Positions 10,762 to 59,398 of a stretch of DNA of 64,000 nt are shown here, in pieces. Origin of the DNA: Acidobacteriota bacterium (lineage in GTDB: Bacteria > Acidobacteriota > Vicinamibacteria > Vicinamibacterales > UBA2999); assembly GCA_030697165.1 (NCBI GenBank), contig JAUYQQ010000013.1, positions 124,001-188,000 on the forward strand, written 5' to 3'. Each line of letters starts with the position of its first letter. Position 1 is the first letter of the stretch. The notes under the pieces are model-generated. The model ran no database searches. It saw only the letters and a program-made list of their open reading frames with translations, and was not told where the DNA came from. A program made the translations under genes and the position numbers.

Positions 10762-13089
10762 TTAATCCGGAATGACCTCGAAAATCCGGACCATCGGCGA
10801 TTCGTTCGGCTTTTGACCCTCGGCGCGAAACTCCTGCGCCAGTCGCATGCTGGTCACTCCTGGCACCGGGAACGCCGGTTGCCACGGGGTGCGGCCGACG
10901 ACGACGAATTCGGGACCGCGGCCGGCGGCGGCCCGTCTGGCGTCATCTGCCGAGGCGAATGACTGCGCCTCCGACACCTCGCAGAACTGACGGCCGGTCG
11001 AATCCACTCGTTGCTGCCTGCGCACCAACCAGGTGCTGTTCACCGGGTTGACTCCCTGGCCGCCCAGCACCATCAACCGGTACGCCATCGCCTGGTAGTA
11101 GGGCTCGAAGTAGATCCAACTGGGCGTCCACGCGTCGCTCTCGCGAATGCGCGAGTAGCACAGCGAGTAGAAGCGATCGGTGGGCACGCCGGCCCAGTCG
11201 GCGAGGTTCTGGAAGCGCCCGGCCAGCGAGCCGTTACCGGCATCGCGGAACGGCAGTTCCCAGTCCACCATCACGAAGCGCGACCGATTGGCCTTCAGGA
11301 TGTCGAGCGCTGCCGCCTCGTCTGTCGCCGTGAGAAACGCAGCGGACTGTGGCGCCCCGCCCTGCGTCGGGTTCGACACCGGCACGCGGTGCGCGGCCTG
11401 GATCAGCCAGTACCCCTGATCCCACCAGTTCATGACCGTGTAGGCCGCGGGCGGATTCGCGGCACCGTACCTGGCGTAGTAGTAACCGGGTTGCGCGAAC
11501 GGCTCTGGCGTCTGGGTCCGCAACCACTGCATGGCCGACGCCCAGTAATCGGCCATGCCGCCGGCGCGGGTGGTGGTAAGCGCGGCCGGCACGAGATTGG
11601 GCGCCACGACCACGCCCGCCACCAGCACAATTGCCAACTCGCGCTGCATCGGCAGCCACGGCTTGATGAGGGGGCGTGGATTGCCAGCGTGGGGCACGCC
11701 GCCCCAGTCGAGCACGCGCACACACAGCCAGCCCGCCACCAGCGCCGCAGCCGGTACGAGGTAGTAGCCGAAACGGTTCTGGCCCACGGTCGCCGCGTAG
11801 TTGACCACCGTGAAGATCACGATCAGCAGGTGATCGAGACGCCGCGACTTCCAGACGGTGACCGCGAGCCACACCACGGCGAGCAACCCGACATAGAAGC
11901 CGCCGCGAAAGAATACCCAGGGCTGCGACCATTCCCAGTTGCCGGTGTAGAGAAACAGCGGCCGGGCCTCGAGCACGGCCATGCGCGTGGGATCGGGGCT
12001 GAACCGGGCGAGATCGGTCGTTACTTGCCGCACGAGATTGGGCTCGACCAGGTAGGCCGCGGCCATGGCCACGACGGCCAGCGCGCCCAGCGCACCGAAA
12101 GCCAGGAGAACTCGATCGGCCAGCAGCATGACCAGCAGCGACAACACCAGCAACGCCGCCAGCGCCGCGACTTGGGTGTTGTAGCGGAAGAGACCCGGGT
12201 CCTGCAGCACCACGACGAGCACGAGCGCCACCGCGGCAGCAATCGCCGAAGCGCGGGCCGCCGGCGCGACGTCGTCACGAGACCGGCCCACCAGCGGCAT
12301 CAACCCCACCCACGCGGCCAGGATGGCGACAAAATACGCGCCACTCCCCCACGCCAAGAGGTATAGCCCTAGCAAGAGACCTGCGGCTACCGCCGGGACT
12401 GCCAACTCTTGACGGGAGGACACCTCCTGTCGGGAGGGCACCTCTTGTCGGGAGGGCACCTCTTGTCGGGAGGGCACCTCATGTCGGGAGGGCACCTCAT
12501 GTCGGGAGGGCACTTCTTGTCGGGAGGGCACTTCTTGTCGGGAGGGCACTTCTTGTCGGGAACGAAGAGCCACAGTGAGACACACCAAGGCGGCGAACGA
12601 GAGCAACACCTCAAGCGCGTGGTGGTCGACAAAGCCCACGAGCGTGCGGTCGAGGAAGTGCCCGGGCAAGACTGCCGCCAGCAGTCCCGCGATCAGACCG
12701 GCGCGGCGATCGAACGCGATCGTGCCGAGGAGCCAGACCGCCGCCACGGCCAGCACACCTGCGACCGCCGGCGCGAGCGCCGCGACGCGCTCAATGTAAT
12801 CTGTCGACGCGTCCCTGCCCTGGGTCGCGACCACGGCGATGGAGATTGCGATGTCGAGAAGGGGCGCCACCGCGACGTACTGGCCGTTGGGCGAGGCGTA
12901 TGGATCGACCGTGACGCGATGCGGGAAATTGCGAACCTGGTTCTCGACCAGCCTGACGTGGTACCAGGCGTCGGTTTCGAGAAAGTTCACGCGGGTTCCG
13001 CCGAGCACATCGTCCCACGGCGCCCACAACCTCAACACCGAGGCGATCAGCAGGATTGCGGCCAGGAACACCCAGTCGAGTCTCTTCAC
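10762..13089 (-). CDS. STT3/PglB-like oligosaccharyltransferase catalytic subunit
   Basis: This 775-residue protein has about 11-13 membrane helices and then a soluble C-terminal domain. The first loop carries FLETDAWYHVRLVEN (about 37-51), the acidic metal motif of STT3 proteins. The second acidic motif is DRTLVGFVDHHALE (147-160). NWWDQGYWL (about 552-560) is the acceptor-sequon pocket equivalent to WWDYG. Such enzymes transfer lipid-linked glycans to asparagine. A stretch of about nine RQEVPS-type hexapeptides (about 177-233) is encoded by an 18-bp minisatellite and sits in an inter-helix loop. The start codon GTG overlaps the upstream gene's stop (GTGA). No lipid-linked glycan assembly genes are in the window. 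Confidence 0.8.
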   Translation of the reverse strand: MKRLDWVFLAAILLIASVLRLWAPWDDVLGGTRVNFLETDAWYHVRLVENQVRNFPHRVTVDPYASPNGQYVAVAPLLDIAISIAVVATQGRDASTDYIERVAALAPAVAGVLAVAAVWLLGTIAFDRRAGLIAGLLAAVLPGHFLDRTLVGFVDHHALEVLLSFAALVCLTVALRSRQEVPSRQEVPSRQEVPSRHEVPSRHEVPSRQEVPSRQEVPSRQEVSSRQELAVPAVAAGLLLGLYLLAWGSGAYFVAILAAWVGLMPLVGRSRDDVAPAARASAIAAAVALVLVVVLQDPGLFRYNTQVAALAALLVLSLLVMLLADRVLLAFGALGALAVVAMAAAYLVEPNLVRQVTTDLARFSPDPTRMAVLEARPLFLYTGNWEWSQPWVFFRGGFYVGLLAVVWLAVTVWKSRRLDHLLIVIFTVVNYAATVGQNRFGYYLVPAAALVAGWLCVRVLDWGGVPHAGNPRPLIKPWLPMQRELAIVLVAGVVVAPNLVPAALTTTRAGGMADYWASAMQWLRTQTPEPFAQPGYYYARYGAANPPAAYTVMNWWDQGYWLIQAAHRVPVSNPTQGGAPQSAAFLTATDEAAALDILKANRSRFVMVDWELPFRDAGNGSLAGRFQNLADWAGVPTDRFYSLCYSRIRESDAWTPSWIYFEPYYQAMAYRLMVLGGQGVNPVNSTWLVRRQQRVDSTGRQFCEVSEAQSFASADDARRAAAGRGPEFVVVGRTPWQPAFPVPGVTSMRLAQEFRAEGQKPNESPMVRIFEVIPD
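12407..12562. repeat. 18-bp minisatellite inside the STT3 gene, about 9 units
   Basis: TGTCGGGA recurs every 18 bp at 12428, 12446, 12464, 12482, 12500, 12518, 12536 and 12554, with a degenerate unit before them. Variants differ mainly at CACCTC, CACTTC, CTTG and CATG. On the coding strand each unit yields Arg-Gln(His)-Glu-Val-Pro-Ser. The core TGTCGGGAGGG and period match the array at 1333-1404, so both belong to one dispersed family that tolerates insertion in coding sequence. Confidence 0.9.
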
Positions 13090-26831: not shown

Positions 26832-26833
26832 TT

Positions 26834-26896
26834 CAGGGATCAGGGATCAGGGATCAGGGATCGGGGATCGGGGATCAGGGATCGGGGATCAGGGGA
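26834..26896. repeat. Heptamer array C[AG]GGGAT, 9 units
   Basis: Nine tandem 7-bp units mix CAGGGAT and CGGGGAT and lie directly upstream of the yaeQ start. The + strand has runs of three or four G separated by 3-4 nt, which fits a G-quadruplex motif; it is the template strand for yaeQ. The same heptamer family occurs at 41469-41564 and 59359-59392, always with G on the + strand. Confidence 0.9.
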
Positions 26897-33264: not shown

Positions 33265-35163
33265 CTACTGGATGGGCATCGTGCCACGCCACAGTGTCTC
33301 GCCTTCGACCGTGACCACGATGGTGGCCGAACCGGCGGCCGCCGGATCCCGCTGATCGACAATCGCGGTGAATGCCCGCTCGTTGGCGCCCCCGGCCGTT
33401 GTCGTCACGCCGGTGAAGCTCGACCAGCCGTCGGTGGATTGCAGGACCCCCAAGACGCTGGCCGCGATTGACCTGGTCTTATCCGGCGCGTCGATGGTGA
33501 ACGTGCCGATCGCCTGTCGTGCTCCCGCGCGGTGGGTGATATCGATGGCGACTCGTGCTCTCGCCGCCAAGCCCTTGGCCGAAAGCTCGCGGGCACCGAA
33601 GGACATGGGCCGGCTGGGCATGTTGCCGGATCTGAGCAAGGCACGACCGCTGCGCACGCCCGTAGCAGTGCCGTTGGTCAACGCGACGGTGCCGTTGACC
33701 AGCACGTGCCGAATGCCCTCCGATGGCAGCGCCGGCTGTTCGTAAGTCGCACGATCAATTACCGTCGCCGGGTCGAGCACAACTAGGTCGGCGGCCATGC
33801 CGAGCGCGATCAGGCCGCGATCGATCATGCCGATGGTGGCGGCGGGCAGCGCCGAGGATTTCCGGATCGCCTCCTCCCACGACATGATCTGCTGCTCGCG
33901 CACGTAGCGGCCGAGGACGCGCGGATACGAACCGTAGAAACGTGGATGGACTCGGGTGGCGGTCGAGGCGCCGCAGTCGCATGCCATCGACGTGGTGGGG
34001 TGCTGGAGGATCTTGACCAGGTCGGCCTCGCTGCCGAAGCGCAGGATCGCGCCGGGATCCCCGGTGGTTTCGAGAATCCGGACGATGGTCTCGCCGGCCC
34101 CGGCATTCATGTCTTTCATCACCGCGGTCAATTCCTGCTGGGTGCGCGGGAGGTAGACACCCTGCGGGCCGCCGAAACGCGCGGTCATGGCCTGCTCGGC
34201 CTCGGTGATAATCCGCGCGCGCTCGGCCGGCTCGGCAAACCGCTTCAGCATGGCCTGGCGCCCGCCCTCTTGCGCCCAGCCCGGAATGATCAACGAGCCA
34301 AGGCCCGACTGACCGGCGAGATACGGATACGCATCGGCCGCGGTGTAGGCACCGCGCCTGGTCGCGTCATCCATCGACGCGAGAATGGCGCCCGCGGTTC
34401 CCTGCTCCAAGCCCTGGGCTTTCATGTGGGTCACGACCGGGACCAGTCCGGCTTTCTGCCCAATCGCGACGGTCTCGGCCACGCCGACCTTCGAACTGTA
34501 GTTGGATTCCGGTGCGATGCGATCGTGATTGGTGAAGTTGGTGCGGAAGGGCCGCGCCACGTCGACAATCCTGATCACTTCCTCGGTGCGGGCGAAGTAC
34601 CCCGGCTTGTAGTCGAGCCCGGCTGACACGCCCCACGCGCCTTGATCGAGACCCCTGGCGATCAGCGCGCGCATCTGCTCGATCTCGGCCGGCGTCGGAC
34701 GCTTGTCCGCGTTCCCGTTCACCGACTGCCAGGCGGCATTGAAGCCGATGTAGCCGCCGATGTTCACGGCCAGGCCGGACGCAGCCAGCGTCTGCATTTG
34801 CTGCGCGATGTCGAGCGGCCCGTTGCCGTCGGCGTTGAAGATCTCGGTGGTCACGCCTTGCGTCAGCATGTTCACCGCCGTCGGCAGCGCGTCGGGTGAG
34901 GCGTGGCTGTGGATGTTGATGAAGCCTGGTGTCACGAACAGTCCGCGCGCCTCGATCTCGGTCGCTGCGGTCGCGCCGGCCAGGTCGCCGATGGCGACAA
35001 TGAAGCCGTTACGGACGGCGATGTCGGCGTCGTAGCGGGGATTGCCGCTGCCGTCGAGCACCGTGCCGTGGCGAATGATGGTGTCATACCGAGGGGCCTG
35101 TGCCTGGGCGTGGCCAATCGACAGACTGATGAGGCAGGCAACGGCGAAGCAAGTCGGGTTCAT
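33265..35163 (-). CDS. Exported D-aminoacylase-type amidohydrolase
   Basis: The 632-residue protein has a signal peptide. The composite beta-domain YDTIIRHGTVLDGSGNPRYD and the HxH metal motif FVTPGFINIHSHASPD follow. VPVVTHMKAQG and AADAYPYLAGQ occur in the barrel, then GYMADLVVLDP-type closure (GMAADLVVLDPATVIDR). This is the N-acyl-D-amino-acid deacylase/dihydroorotase-like group. About 130 extra C-terminal residues form a beta-rich tail not found in classical enzymes. The periplasmic location suggests hydrolysis of exogenous N-acyl amino acids or peptides. The ATG overlaps the preceding gene's stop (ATGA). Confidence 0.87.
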   Translation of the reverse strand: MNPTCFAVACLISLSIGHAQAQAPRYDTIIRHGTVLDGSGNPRYDADIAVRNGFIVAIGDLAGATAATEIEARGLFVTPGFINIHSHASPDALPTAVNMLTQGVTTEIFNADGNGPLDIAQQMQTLAASGLAVNIGGYIGFNAAWQSVNGNADKRPTPAEIEQMRALIARGLDQGAWGVSAGLDYKPGYFARTEEVIRIVDVARPFRTNFTNHDRIAPESNYSSKVGVAETVAIGQKAGLVPVVTHMKAQGLEQGTAGAILASMDDATRRGAYTAADAYPYLAGQSGLGSLIIPGWAQEGGRQAMLKRFAEPAERARIITEAEQAMTARFGGPQGVYLPRTQQELTAVMKDMNAGAGETIVRILETTGDPGAILRFGSEADLVKILQHPTTSMACDCGASTATRVHPRFYGSYPRVLGRYVREQQIMSWEEAIRKSSALPAATIGMIDRGLIALGMAADLVVLDPATVIDRATYEQPALPSEGIRHVLVNGTVALTNGTATGVRSGRALLRSGNMPSRPMSFGARELSAKGLAARARVAIDITHRAGARQAIGTFTIDAPDKTRSIAASVLGVLQSTDGWSSFTGVTTTAGGANERAFTAIVDQRDPAAAGSATIVVTVEGETLWRGTMPIQ

Positions 35164-36083
35164 GGCGCGGTGCCGGATGATAGCACCCACCCATCGGCGT
35201 AGTGAACGATCAGCAGGTCGCTCTGTCGGATAGCCTGCTTAAGAAGTTCAGCGTCAAGCGGGCGATCGGCGGTGATGCATTGGCGGACCGCCTCGATCCG
35301 CAGCACCGCATCGGCAATGTCCGCAACCCGCAGCACCGCCTCCAGCCCATCGGCGGTGTACGCGGCCCACGAAGCGAATACCTTGGCCGCGCGGTACCGC
35401 TGCACCACTGGCGCAAAGCCCGGCCACGCCGGCGCGACCCGCGCCTCCCACTGTTGCTCTACATCAGACGGCGCCTCGTTCCATGACCAGGGCGCGGGCA
35501 CGGCGAAGCGCGCGTGCTCGAACAAGGCAATCGCGACGGCCATCGATGGAGTCGTGGGCGCCTTCCCCACTTCAGAGCGCTCCCAGGCCGCGAACGCGTC
35601 GAACGTCATCAGCCGCTCCGGCGCTTCGAGCGGCGGCAGTGATTCGCGCGCATCGAGCCCTTCGGGAAGGTCGAAACCCGCGACCGGTGACGGCCCGTCG
35701 ACAATCTCAATCGCTCCTTCATGCGTGAACAGCAGCGACGCTGCCGCCGGGCAGTAGTGCGACAGCGTGACGTGCACGCCACGCTGATCGATCAGGCAGA
35801 CGTACGGGAAATGCGCGCAGCTCACCGGGCGCGCGCGGTGAACCCCGCAGCCGCCGGCGCCGTGAAACACGCAGTGACCGTTCGCCTGCAGCGCCAGCAT
35901 CCCGGCCACCTCGCCGGGCGCGTCGGGTTCAGGCACCAGCCACGAGTCGTCTGGCCGGCCCGCCAGGCCGCGAATGGGAATGACCCGGTCACGTTCCACC
36001 GGAATCGCCCAGCCCGAGGAACAACAGGCGCCGCTGTGGCGGCAGGCGTAGGTGACGTGGAAGTTGAGCCAGGAGGTGCGCAC
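35160..36083 (-). CDS. YkgJ-type cysteine-cluster protein
   Basis: The 307-residue protein has an N-terminal Cys/His cluster: YACRHSGACCSSGWAIPV, then HCVFHGAGGCGVHRARPVSC, AHFPYVC and SHYC. This fits the YkgJ/Fli-B family proposed to bind zinc or an iron-sulfur cluster. The C-terminal 200 residues are helical and lack recognised motifs. The function is unknown. The GTG start at 36083 is only 8 bp from the outer end of the repeat-flanked cassette at 36091. Its stop overlaps the amidohydrolase start. Confidence 0.75.
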   Translation of the reverse strand: MRTSWLNFHVTYACRHSGACCSSGWAIPVERDRVIPIRGLAGRPDDSWLVPEPDAPGEVAGMLALQANGHCVFHGAGGCGVHRARPVSCAHFPYVCLIDQRGVHVTLSHYCPAAASLLFTHEGAIEIVDGPSPVAGFDLPEGLDARESLPPLEAPERLMTFDAFAAWERSEVGKAPTTPSMAVAIALFEHARFAVPAPWSWNEAPSDVEQQWEARVAPAWPGFAPVVQRYRAAKVFASWAAYTADGLEAVLRVADIADAVLRIEAVRQCITADRPLDAELLKQAIRQSDLLIVHYADGWVLSSGTAP

Positions 36084-36120
36084 TTGGGTGGAGTTGAAAG
36101 TTTAAGAGTTGGTAGTTGGT

Positions 36121-36192
36121 AGTTTCAGTTGAGAGTTTCAGTTTCAGTGGCAGTTTCAGTGGCAGTTTCAGTTTCAGTGGCAGTTTCAGTTG
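36121..36192. repeat. Left hexamer array (GTTTCA / GTGGCA)
   Basis: About eleven 6-bp units, mostly GTTTCA with interspersed GTGGCA, run up to GTTGCG. They are the reverse complement of the units in the right array, so the two can pair over a distance of about 600 bp. Confidence 0.9.
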
Positions 36193-36325
36193 CGGTTCAG
36201 CCGCCGGGTCGCAGAAATTGCTGCGGGCTTCGGCCACTCACCGGTCAGAAATTTCCACGTCTCGCAACGGCAATAGGCGATTGTCGCCGAAAAACCGGCG
36301 GTACACCCCTTGCTCTTGATTGACC

Positions 36326-36733
36326 ATGAAGCCACCATCCGACGCCCGAAAACGCACCCTCGCACTGCAGGAGCGCGCCTTACGGTTCAGCACTGGAGTG
36401 AATCTCTCGTGTCCGAGCCAGTTCTCCAACATCCCAAGCGCCACCATCTGGCGTCAACTGGTTCGCTGTGCGGACTCCGTGTCCGCGAATCTAGTCGAGG
36501 CCGACGATGCGTCGAGCACCGCGGACTTCTTGTATAAGATCCAGTTGACGCTGAGAGAGGCCAAGGAATCACGCCAATGCCTGGCCAAACTCCGGCTGGC
36601 CAAACTGGACGCGTGGGATGCCGTCGGTAGACTGGAGGACGAGGCCATCGAACTGTCGGCGATCTTCGCGACGATCGCCATCAAGGTCGCCAGCCGCCTC
36701 GAACGGGAATCGCAATCTCGACGCCGAAACTGA
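36326..36733 (+). CDS. Four-helix-bundle protein (23S rRNA intervening-sequence / Avd-like)
   Basis: The 135-residue protein has the amphipathic helix pattern of this family. LQERALRFSTG forms helix 1, ATIWRQLVRCADSVSANLVE the second, FLYKIQLTLREAKESRQCL the third, and the fourth runs VGRLEDEAIELSAIFATIAI. The EA...DF..K...REAKES signature is diagnostic. Family members include proteins encoded in 23S rRNA intervening sequences and Avd-like proteins of diversity-generating retroelements; they form oligomers and may bind nucleic acid. No rRNA or retroelement surrounds this copy. ATG is chosen; TTG 6 nt upstream is possible. The stop codon TGA is within the first GAAACT unit of the right array. 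Confidence 0.85.
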   Translation: MKPPSDARKRTLALQERALRFSTGVNLSCPSQFSNIPSATIWRQLVRCADSVSANLVEADDASSTADFLYKIQLTLREAKESRQCLAKLRLAKLDAWDAVGRLEDEAIELSAIFATIAIKVASRLERESQSRRRN

Positions 36734-36761
36734 AACTGAAACTGAAACTGCAACTGCAACT
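36726..36761. repeat. Right hexamer array (GAAACT / GCAACT)
   Basis: Four GAAACT units followed by two GCAACT units overlap the last codons and the stop codon of the four-helix-bundle gene, and then grade into TTCAAC-type repeats up to 36789. Confidence 0.9.
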
Positions 36762-36807
36762 TCCAACTTCAACTACCAACTTTCAACTCGTCAACTTACA
36801 ACTATCC

Positions 36808-37047
36808 ATGATGCAGGCATTTTCGGTCGTCGCCGCGCTGTTGATTCTCTTTCCGTTCGCAGCCAGTCAACTGGGCCGGCTGTCCACGCGCACCTTGTCG
36901 TACCAACTGATGAACCTGGCTGGCTCTTCCGCGCTCACCATCGTTGCCCTGGTCGAACGGCAGTACGGGTTCATCCTGCTCGAGGGGACCTGGGCCATTG
37001 CGAGCGCCGTCGGGTTGGTGAGCGTCCTGCGCGCCAGGGGGAAATAG
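36808..37047 (+). CDS. Small two-to-three-helix membrane protein (CBU_0592-like)
   Basis: The 79-residue protein has hydrophobic stretches VVAALLILFPFAASQLG, LMNLAGSSALTIVAL and WAIASAVGLVSVL. The spacing resembles the CBU_0592-type small membrane protein family, in which a Y-x-L-x-N-x-x-G motif (here YQLMNLAGSS) precedes the second helix and a Glu-Gly-x-W motif (LLEGTWA) the third. The role is unknown. Two adjacent ATGs could start it. It begins 18 bp beyond the end of the repeat-flanked cassette. Confidence 0.7.
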   Translation: MMQAFSVVAALLILFPFAASQLGRLSTRTLSYQLMNLAGSSALTIVALVERQYGFILLEGTWAIASAVGLVSVLRARGK

Positions 37048-37067
37048 GGCGGCCTCTGGCTGGCACA

Positions 37068-37745
37068 CTACTGGATCGCGTATCCGGTCAGCAGGAACTT
37101 CGCGCTGCCGCCGCGCACGTTGATGCCGTGACCGAACGAACAGCCGCCGCCGAACGTCACCCCGAGCCGCGAGACATTCAGCAGCGCCTTGTCGAAGTTG
37201 AACCGCGCGACGCTGTCGGCATTGCCGAACTGCCCGTTCACGCTCGACCACGCGCCGGGCTCCAGGGGCACGGCGATCGTCGCGCTGCCATCGGCGAGCG
37301 CGAACGCCCGTGGATTGGACCACCATCGGTCGTAGGCGCCGTTGCCGTTGTTGTTGGCCCACAGAAATGGCCGCACCGAAGCCGGAAGGCTACATGCGCT
37401 CGTGATGGGATCAAGCGAGTTGAACACGACCGGGCCAGTGGTCATGACGCGCAGCGACACCACCACGGTCCCGCGGATCGTCGTCAGGGCACTGGGCGAG
37501 AAGAGGTAATGCATCGATCCCGTCTCCGGGAAGTCGAACTCCAGCTGCGCGGCACTATTGGTGGTGAGCGGGAACGGATCGGGAGTGCCGATGGTCTGCC
37601 AGAGGCCGCTTTGCAGCGACAGCGTGAGCGGCGTCGGCGGATCAGCCGACGGCCCCGTCGGTGACCCCGAACACGCCACCTGTGTGGCTAGTGACACCAA
37701 TAGCGCCACCACGAACGCGCGTCGGGGCCTCACCAGGTTCGTCAC
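37068..37745 (-). CDS. Hypothetical lipoprotein
   Basis: The 225-residue protein begins with an arginine-rich n-region, a hydrophobic core and the lipobox TQVACSGSPTGPS, so it is probably lipid-anchored. The mature part is beta-rich, with paired cysteines (TSACSLP and GGCSFG), and matches no family I recognise. Its GTG start overlaps the methyltransferase stop (GTGA, 37742-37745), so the two are translationally coupled. Confidence 0.65.
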   Translation of the reverse strand: MTNLVRPRRAFVVALLVSLATQVACSGSPTGPSADPPTPLTLSLQSGLWQTIGTPDPFPLTTNSAAQLEFDFPETGSMHYLFSPSALTTIRGTVVVSLRVMTTGPVVFNSLDPITSACSLPASVRPFLWANNNGNGAYDRWWSNPRAFALADGSATIAVPLEPGAWSSVNGQFGNADSVARFNFDKALLNVSRLGVTFGGGCSFGHGINVRGGSAKFLLTGYAIQ

Positions 37746-41468: not shown

Positions 41469-41564
41469 CAGGGAACAGGGATCAGGGATCGGGGATCAGG
41501 GATCAGGGATCGGGGATCGGGGATCAGGGATCGGGGATCGGGGATCAGGGATCGGGGATCGGGG
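41469..41564. repeat. Heptamer array C[AG]GGGAT, 13-14 units
   Basis: An uninterrupted 7-bp array of CAGGGAT and CGGGGAT begins 3 bp after the fusion gene's stop and ends 50 bp before the next start. The G-rich strand is the non-template strand, so the transcript would carry a run of potential G-quartets. It is the longest of three copies in the window. Confidence 0.92.
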
Positions 41565-59341: not shown

Positions 59342-59358
59342 GGGGTGTATGTATACAT

Positions 59359-59392
59359 CAGGGATCGGGATCGGGGATCAGGGATCGGGGAT
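59359..59392. repeat. Heptamer array C[AG]GGGAT, 5 units
   Basis: Five units (one shortened to CGGGAT) lie between the S51 peptidase start and the -10 hexamer of the next gene, occupying the place of a -35 region. The G-rich strand is again the + strand. Confidence 0.85.
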
Positions 59393-59398
59393 CCCCGC

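Follow-up and report, generated by a model that had tools for sequence, protein, structure and literature searches.

Inverted tandem-repeat arms around a four-helix-bundle gene in an Acidobacteriota genome: a probable autonomous copy of a mobile-element family

The Locus

The window (the whole stretch of 64,000 nucleotides that was analysed) carries, at approximately 36091–36803, an element in which a gene for a four-helix-bundle protein is enclosed by inverted hexamer arms. The element is placed between two protein genes and not inside a 23S rRNA gene. The features of the locus are the following:

35160–36083, minus strand: neighbour gene with a weak CxxCxxCC match below the Pfam cut-off; marks the left boundary of the element
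36091–36193, plus strand: left (5′) arm, a terminal inverted repeat (36091–36120) and then an AGTTTC/AGTGGC hexamer array (inverted-repeat search, TRF, terminal-repeat pattern)
36326–36733, plus strand: four-helix-bundle protein gene, 135 aa, TIGR02436/PF05635 (profile matches, AlphaFold model, G008 orthologue)
36726–36803, minus strand: right (3′) arm, a GAAACT/GCAACT array (36726–36761) overlapping the stop codon, and a terminal inverted repeat (36776–36803)
36808–37047, plus strand: gene for a membrane protein of the CBU_0592 family, the neighbour that sets the right boundary (scanned as 36808–37044, stop codon by eye)

The inverted hexanucleotide arrays around the gene, pointed out in an earlier sequence-only reading, are confirmed by inverted-repeat search and by TRF. 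The inverted arms (36092–36169 and 36726–36803) span 78 nt and are 81% complementary. TRF places the left array at 36121–36191, with AGTTTC or an 18-mer containing AGTGGC as the unit, and the right array at 36726–36761, with GAAACT followed by GCAACT. The stop codon (TGA, 36731–36733) lies inside the right array, as that reading had stated. The perfect terminal inverted repeat, given there as 10 bp, is real and has a length of 12 bp (36091–36102 and 36778–36789). The terminal-repeat pattern is matched at 36092–36119 (plus strand) and 36776–36803 (minus strand), and because it reaches 36803, the right end is better placed at about this position, 4 bp before the ATG at 36808. The described tight fit between the neighbours holds on the left, where the end lies 8 bp from the predicted GTG start (36083) of the minus-strand neighbour; on the right, the 18 bp counted from 36789 to the ATG are reduced to 4 bp.

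The open-reading-frame list starts the gene at a TTG (36320); the ATG at 36326 is preferred as the start, since the orthologue in G008, a member of the same genus, begins at a matching ATG. To score the arms, 600 bp from the left side of the domain were locally aligned with the reverse-complemented 600 bp from its right side, and the threshold was set at 35. The window element scores 81; when the scoring position was moved along the remainder of the window, 0 of 401 positions attained the threshold. In the predicted fold, the element strand has its arms paired (z = −6.2 against 20 shuffles). Rfam gives no match on 35800–37100 up to E 1.

The Protein

The window protein belongs to TIGR02436 (E 9.1e-12) and PF05635 (35.0 bits, cut-off 33.8). 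These are the only matches in the profile scans, which detect no catalytic, HUH (Y1_Tnp) or transposase domain. The AlphaFold model (mean pLDDT 90.2) is all-helical. Its best match among solved structures is the S23-family protein 2rld (best E 3.0e-4), followed by a weaker match to 2gsc (best E 0.017); both crystal structures are titled as hypothetical or of unknown function. Avd, a protein of diversity-generating retroelements (DGR), is a pentamer that works with a reverse transcriptase, and the five chains present in both 2rld and 2gsc are in keeping with it. The match of the model to chain E of 8ub7, a DGR ribonucleoprotein, is weak (E 0.32, TM by target 0.72). The PHROG 'Avd protein of DGR' is matched by two family members; the window protein itself matches no PHROG at E 0.01. 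A resemblance of PF05635 to Avd is mentioned in a passage of a DGR review (PMC10053308). A PADLOC defence-system scan of three members gives no match.

Inverted Arms Across the Family

The genome of the window (own genome, G000) has 10 family matches. Inverted arms are present at eight of them, each with a different arm unit (for example CAGTAGC, GGGATCA, AGGTGCCA, AGGTTCGGAG and one 14-mer); the remaining two are a copy with a single-sided array and a fragment.

In an order-level survey of 21 genomes, 123 matches yield 118 loci after omission of four weak fragments (G005:C179, G007:C46, G005:C106 and G010:C22) and merging of one split match, and 116 loci are scorable. Inverted arms are found at 86 of these 116 members. 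The direct-orientation control in the same 21 genomes (left against right) reaches the threshold at 8 of 116, and the mismatched-pair control (left of one member against right of another in the same genome) at 4 of 324. Control positions in other stretches reach it at 5 of 732 in the own genome and 11 of 488 in G014.

A survey of many phyla, represented by the best 80 of at least 582 loci and thus not random, shows inverted arms at 58 of the 80. The corresponding controls, within the same best 80, give 13/80 in direct orientation and 2/320 for mismatched pairs, so direct-orientation arrays also flank some members. Viral contigs of IMG/VR contain 23 loci, of which five near-duplicates were omitted before scoring; 14 of the 18 scored have inverted arms. 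In the family around a Xanthomonas (60 genomes, 39 matches), inverted arms occur at 22 of the 30 loci scored, three of which are shorter than the script assumed and have imprecise positions. Eight of 35 matching plasmid records were read, all cyanobacterial; six reach 35 with 400-bp flanks, and two of these six are copies of one region. The INPHARED phages, searched by tblastn with one family member, give no match, yet the element is present on IMG/VR contigs. No relative was confirmed in a viral scan for which the divergent window protein served as the query.

Arrays that never accompany the protein family would have spoken against the sequence-only reading; they do co-occur with it, but the association is not constant: 30 of the 116 members in the order, and 22 of the best 80 of at least 582 loci in many phyla, remain below the arm threshold. 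Some of the sub-threshold members are fragments, some have a one-sided array and others are simply armless. Counts taken from related genomes are not independent of one another. The spread of the element class over many phyla is strongly supported.

Evidence for Mobility

In lambda-type phages, the element is located between the head-decoration and major head genes (PHROG families). Between an AAAGGAG box and the major-head ATG, the three filled contigs (L344, L345 and L351) have 431 nt, and eight empty phage contigs, which are repeat-free there, have 7–10 nt. These numbers derive from 18 of 80 related contigs read at the site, comprising the three filled and eight empty ones, L347 and six more distant contigs in which no element was seen. 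L344 shares 93–97% identity upstream (350 bp) and 89–91% identity in the head (capsid) gene with four of the empty phages. The element is 96–98% identical among the three filled phages, with 73–86% identity in the upstream 400 bp and 79–90% in the head genes; the pair L345–L351 is 96% identical in the nearest 100 bp. This comparison indicates that the phages acquired the unit in one piece, either through insertion or through recombination at the site. The close phages give both the empty and the filled state, whose alignment had been suggested earlier as a way to define the insertion boundary and any target duplication; the phage site is ambiguous in the latter respect, and in a few copies of the element inspected by eye no target-site duplication is apparent.

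Neighbour-gene scans for two further phage elements yielded no empty site that could be used: among the relatives of L253, of which 8 of 14 loci were read, the position is occupied by different DNA, and L254 matched itself only. In L347, the DNA preceding the head gene is unrelated and includes a reading frame that, judged by eye, resembles a reverse transcriptase or intron protein. The copies L336 and L337 on plasmids 1 and 2 of Calothrix brevissima were rejected as independent insertions, the plasmids sharing 3.6 kb at 97.5% identity; the shared 3.6 kb hold a phage-integrase-family gene and the four-helix-bundle element.

Two copies in G002 align over 560 bp, arms and gene included, at 82.5% identity, with no other match at E 1e-5 within 1.5 kb on either side. 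The window locus itself is readable in G003, G005, G006 and G008; in the remaining four members of the genus, the two flanks were not recovered next to each other. The gene and arms are kept in G008, with repeat numbers different from those of G000. The locus is decayed in G006, where the left arm and a gene remnant remain, and both the gene and arms are absent from G003 and G005. The latter two are not clean empty sites, because the genes to the right differ as well. No orthologue without arrays was found in the relatives readable at this locus.

The proposal that the gene and arms form one mobile unit is strongly supported by their pairing across the family and across phyla, by the empty and filled phage sites and by their joint retention or loss in the four relatives.

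Gene-less Copies in the Own Genome

Arrays related to the arms of own-genome elements are also present in the window without a gene. Each is listed with its score against the own genome and the control score:

12406–12561, plus strand: gene-less 18-mer array related to the arms of C23:267962 (L003); own-genome score 41, control 16
26833–26894, plus strand: gene-less GGGATCA-family array; own-genome score 114, control 38
41469–41564, plus strand: gene-less GGGATCA-family array; own-genome score 142, control 36
59357–59393, plus strand: gene-less GGGATCA-family array; own-genome score 63, control 31

The gene-bearing element of the GGGATCA family lies elsewhere in the own genome (C23, locus L002). 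The GGGATCR heptamer pattern has 222 matches in the own genome, 0–68 in other genus members, and 1 and 3 matches in two genomes outside the genus. For AGTTTCAGTTTC, the own genome gives 43 overlapping matches, and the reversed control gives 0.

The terminal repeat of the window element (up to two mismatches) is matched 46 times in the own genome, against 4 for the reversed pattern; there are 0–5 matches per other genus member (reversed control 1 in G008) and none in 12 genomes outside the genus. Two of the 46 matches are the ends of the window element itself; the others form 11 close inverted pairs and 22 single ends. The inverted pairs span about 90–170 bp and are too short for a gene. Some of the single ends have a weaker partner, as at L026.

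Of the 41 tandem arrays in 304 kb of the own genome, 17 score at least 30 against the arms of one of nine own elements, and all 17 prefer the own element over any of 34 control elements from six other genomes; the control elements reach 30 with 12 of the 41. In 160 kb of G014, 6 of 18 arrays match own elements, one of them no better than the control, and the controls reach 3 of 18. A comparison of array density with the number of family matches in 10 genomes gives rho 0.63 (p = 0.051); G015 and G001 run counter to the trend. G015 has 5.0 non-triplet tandem arrays per 100 kb, yet no TIGR02436 match; its arrays may be relics or have another source, or a gene may have been missed. G001, with 13 family matches, has 30 kb without any non-triplet array.

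At 1333–1403 of the window, an 18-mer array (GGTGATCCTTGTCGGGAG) is followed by an inverted CCCTCCCGTC stretch; the array is weakly similar to own-genome arms (score 21) and resembles CGGGAGGGCAC arms in G008 and G002. At L324, the enclosing arrays are apparent only, being separate gene-less arrays around ordinary genes.

Arm Units and Their Link to the Protein

The array periods are mostly 7, then 14 and 8. The unit is locus-specific and common to both arms. G outnumbers C on the coding strand of the 5′ arm in 70 of the 86 order elements (the reverse in 13) and in 51 of the 58 phyla elements drawn from the best 80 of at least 582 loci (the reverse in 6); the 5′ arm is thus usually G-rich.

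Among 58 pairs of related elements (at least 55% protein identity), the match between the two arms of one element surpasses their match to the partner's opposite arms in 56 pairs, and to its same-side arms in 48, with the elements pre-selected by the arm threshold, which favours the within-element match, and with syntenic pairs kept in. The mean same-side score is higher (76 vs 67), because some of the pairs are syntenic. Array similarity grows with protein identity (Mantel rho 0.16, 0 of 500 permutations). An array cosine of at least 0.2 is reached by 7/7 pairs at 80% protein identity or more, 14/49 at 60–80% and 10/2898 below 30%, under an imperfect synteny filter that let the G000–G008 pair at the window locus pass. 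The array unit evidently tracks the protein among close relatives; outside them, the correlation is weak.

Xanthomonas and Dispersed Heptamer Repeats

In X. arboricola, the gene of L235 (2001–2324) is flanked by GGGAATC arms and reads as placed inside the accB–accC operon. GGGAATC is also a dispersed repeat of X. campestris, where 186 copies with 70 convergent (inverted) pairs are reported by Rehm et al. 2015 (PMC4692102), who, in the portion consulted, note generally no association of the repeats with mobile elements. Neither helix bundle nor S23 nor XCC0516 appears as a term in the main text of that paper. The triple GGGAATC heptamer has 84 matches in the L235 genome and none in five genomes holding other family loci.

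Among the 60 genomes of the family around this Xanthomonas, GGGAATC arrays and the gene occur together in 14, arrays only in 3, the gene only in 15 and neither in 28 (Fisher p = 0.0013); accordingly, 3 of the 17 genomes with arrays have no family match. Arms containing GGGANTC at least twice are found in 9/14 vs 3/15 (p = 0.025). Both p-values ignore relatedness. For the TAACTGA heptamers of Beggiatoaceae and cyanobacteria, the part of MacGregor 2015 (PMC4679880) consulted describes no evident transfer mechanism, and its main text lacks the terms helix bundle and S23. In Vreelandella sedimenti (L237), the right heptamer array is extremely long, with a TRF score of 1176 within the 600-bp flank.

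Proposed Mechanism and Alternative Explanations

The window cassette is probably (about 0.7) an autonomous, gene-bearing copy of a mobile-element family composed of one four-helix-bundle gene inside inverted tandem-repeat arms. Comparison of the sequences makes evident the gain of whole units, a unit common to both arms, and scattered gene-less copies with matching ends.

The four-helix-bundle protein could recognise the arm of its own element, either as a hairpin of single-stranded DNA or in RNA form, and could serve full and gene-less copies in trans. Host enzymes would carry out the copying and joining, most likely at replication forks. They are proposed because nothing recognisable as a nuclease or polymerase is encoded in the element, and because several hosts rich in copies gave no reverse transcriptase match. 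Through fold-back copying between the arms, both arrays would stay alike and could expand. In its sharing of tasks, such a system would be akin to RAYT transposases and their REP/REPIN sequences, though the protein is unrelated. The trans-acting specificity of the protein is plausible.

Diversity-generating retroelements suggest another route, in which an Avd-like protein would be mobilised together with a reverse transcriptase acting in trans. The PHROG match of two members (not shared by the window protein at E 0.01) and the weak match of its model to 8ub7 chain E (E 0.32) are consistent with such retro-mobility. Nevertheless, no PF00078 reverse transcriptase was found in G000, G001, G007, G008 or G014, each with 8–13 family matches; G014 is a single-contig genome, and the others include drafts. 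A reverse transcriptase as a required same-genome partner is thus unsupported in five member-rich genomes, although divergent enzymes, draft gaps or past loss could account for this, and the route is considered unlikely. Alternatively, the repeats could be REP/REPIN families moved by HUH (Y1/RAYT) transposases, with the four-helix protein as a passenger. Y1_Tnp matches occur in 19 of the 21 genomes, so these enzymes could act in trans in most of them, and three of four scored Y1 loci also have inverted repeats; L312–L315 are likely REP/RAYT systems. None of the four, however, shows tandem arrays with one unit common to both sides. The array unit follows the four-helix protein, and G018, with 17 four-helix matches, gave no Y1 match. 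The last result weakens the Y1 transposase as a required partner, and the passenger model is considered very unlikely. With no catalytic domain in the protein, no PF00078 match in the five genomes and no Y1 match in G018, the favoured model is a binding protein that acts in trans, would pair with its own arm and would rely on the replication or repair enzymes of the host.

The arrays could also be ordinary microsatellites grown by slippage, the gene being inserted into, or merely located beside, repeat-rich DNA; the copy number of the arrays indeed differs between the orthologues in G000 and G008, and similar arrays exist without a gene. However, insertion into an array predicts equal orientation on both sides, whereas the arms are inverted at 86/116 loci and direct at 8/116. 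In addition, the eight empty phage sites are repeat-free, the gene is missing together with the arrays in two relatives at the window locus, and the terminal repeats are common to gene-less and gene-bearing copies. Slippage alone is rejected because of the inverted arms and the array-free phage sites, and microsatellite growth in general appears very unlikely. Arms that form a stem cut by RNase III could instead make the insert a harmless RNA-level element similar to the intervening sequence (IVS) of 23S rRNA, with the arms serving RNA processing and with rare and incidental spread. The predicted pairing of the arms (z = −6.2) agrees with this, as do the positions of elements within operon-like rows (phage head genes, cas6–cas4, ribonucleotide reductase subunits, putative accB–accC) and the Coxiella rRNA insert, which, in the portion of PMC4990558 consulted, combines the same protein family with inverted ends and strain-variable upstream heptamers. 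This explanation leaves unaccounted for the tens to hundreds of gene-less copies, the one-sided copies and the unit that tracks the protein, and it seems improbable as the whole account. RNA processing is compatible with a mobile element and may be a second function of the arms.

Significance

We consider it rather probable that such elements constitute an unrecognised, widespread mobile class, in which a non-enzymatic four-helix protein serves as the specificity factor for the arms and acts via host enzymes, and that this class is the source of many dispersed heptamers in Xanthomonas, cyanobacteria and other bacteria and the parent of the 23S rRNA IVS. A common protein family of unknown function thereby gains a likely role, and dispersed heptamer repeats, whose origin stayed open, gain a candidate source. 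If the proposal is true, rRNA intervening sequences belong to a larger mobile class, arms diversify yet stay matched, and a non-catalytic protein of about 120 residues that directs the spread of DNA via host enzymes would amount to a novel mode of DNA movement. Because the units differ from locus to locus, binding assays could test the claim directly.

The entry '23S rRNA IVP' appears in a figure legend of a CRISPR survey (PMC10910872). On a Pseudanabaena plasmid (L338, NZ_CP112875.1 44774–48106), a four-helix-bundle element lies between cas6 and cas4; its long AAAGCT-type arrays score higher in direct orientation (125) than in inverted orientation (59). This insertion may explain the reported link between the family and CRISPR.

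Comparison with Known Systems

The 23S rRNA IVS of Coxiella and Leptospira shares with the window element an S23/TIGR02436 reading frame inside complementary ends, which in the window are those of the predicted fold. In Coxiella, tandem heptamers of strain-variable number lie upstream of the reading frame, similar to the element arms; the consulted part of the same report (PMC4990558) mentions a proposed mobile origin for the insert, and its authors suggest that the protein is not made in vivo. Unlike the IVS, the window element is situated between protein genes and not in rRNA, its family has dispersed gene-less copies, and its arms are arrays with an element-specific unit. The 23S rRNA IVS may be a part of the wider element class. 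Among the papers listed by searches of open-access PMC text (with preprints and most subscription journals outside this scope), none describes this element class or links the protein family to tandem-array arms, except for the Coxiella IVS heptamers.

The published heptamers, namely GGGAATC of Xanthomonas, TAACTGA and the cyanobacterial STRR, resemble the element arms in being mostly intergenic heptamer arrays, as far as the consulted portions of these sources describe them, and GGGAATC is the very unit of the L235 arms. Those portions name no source gene for the Xanthomonas and Beggiatoaceae heptamers, whereas the element arms flank a gene.

REPIN/RAYT systems consist of a gene flanked by inverted repeats and of scattered gene-less palindromic copies. 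The window element is similar in having inverted repeats beside its gene and gene-less copies elsewhere in the genome. It differs in its protein, which is PF05635/TIGR02436 and not an HUH transposase, and in its arms, which are short tandem arrays and not the single 20–40 bp palindromes of REP. The fold may resemble that of Avd of diversity-generating retroelements, to judge from the weak 8ub7 chain E match and from the PHROG match of two relatives; in contrast to a diversity-generating retroelement, no PF00078 reverse transcriptase was found in the own genome. Unlike an insertion sequence or MITE, the gene has no transposase domain, and the ends of the gene-less copies are those of a four-helix-bundle element. 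By these comparisons, the element is neither an IVS, a diversity-generating retroelement, a RAYT system nor a classical IS/MITE.
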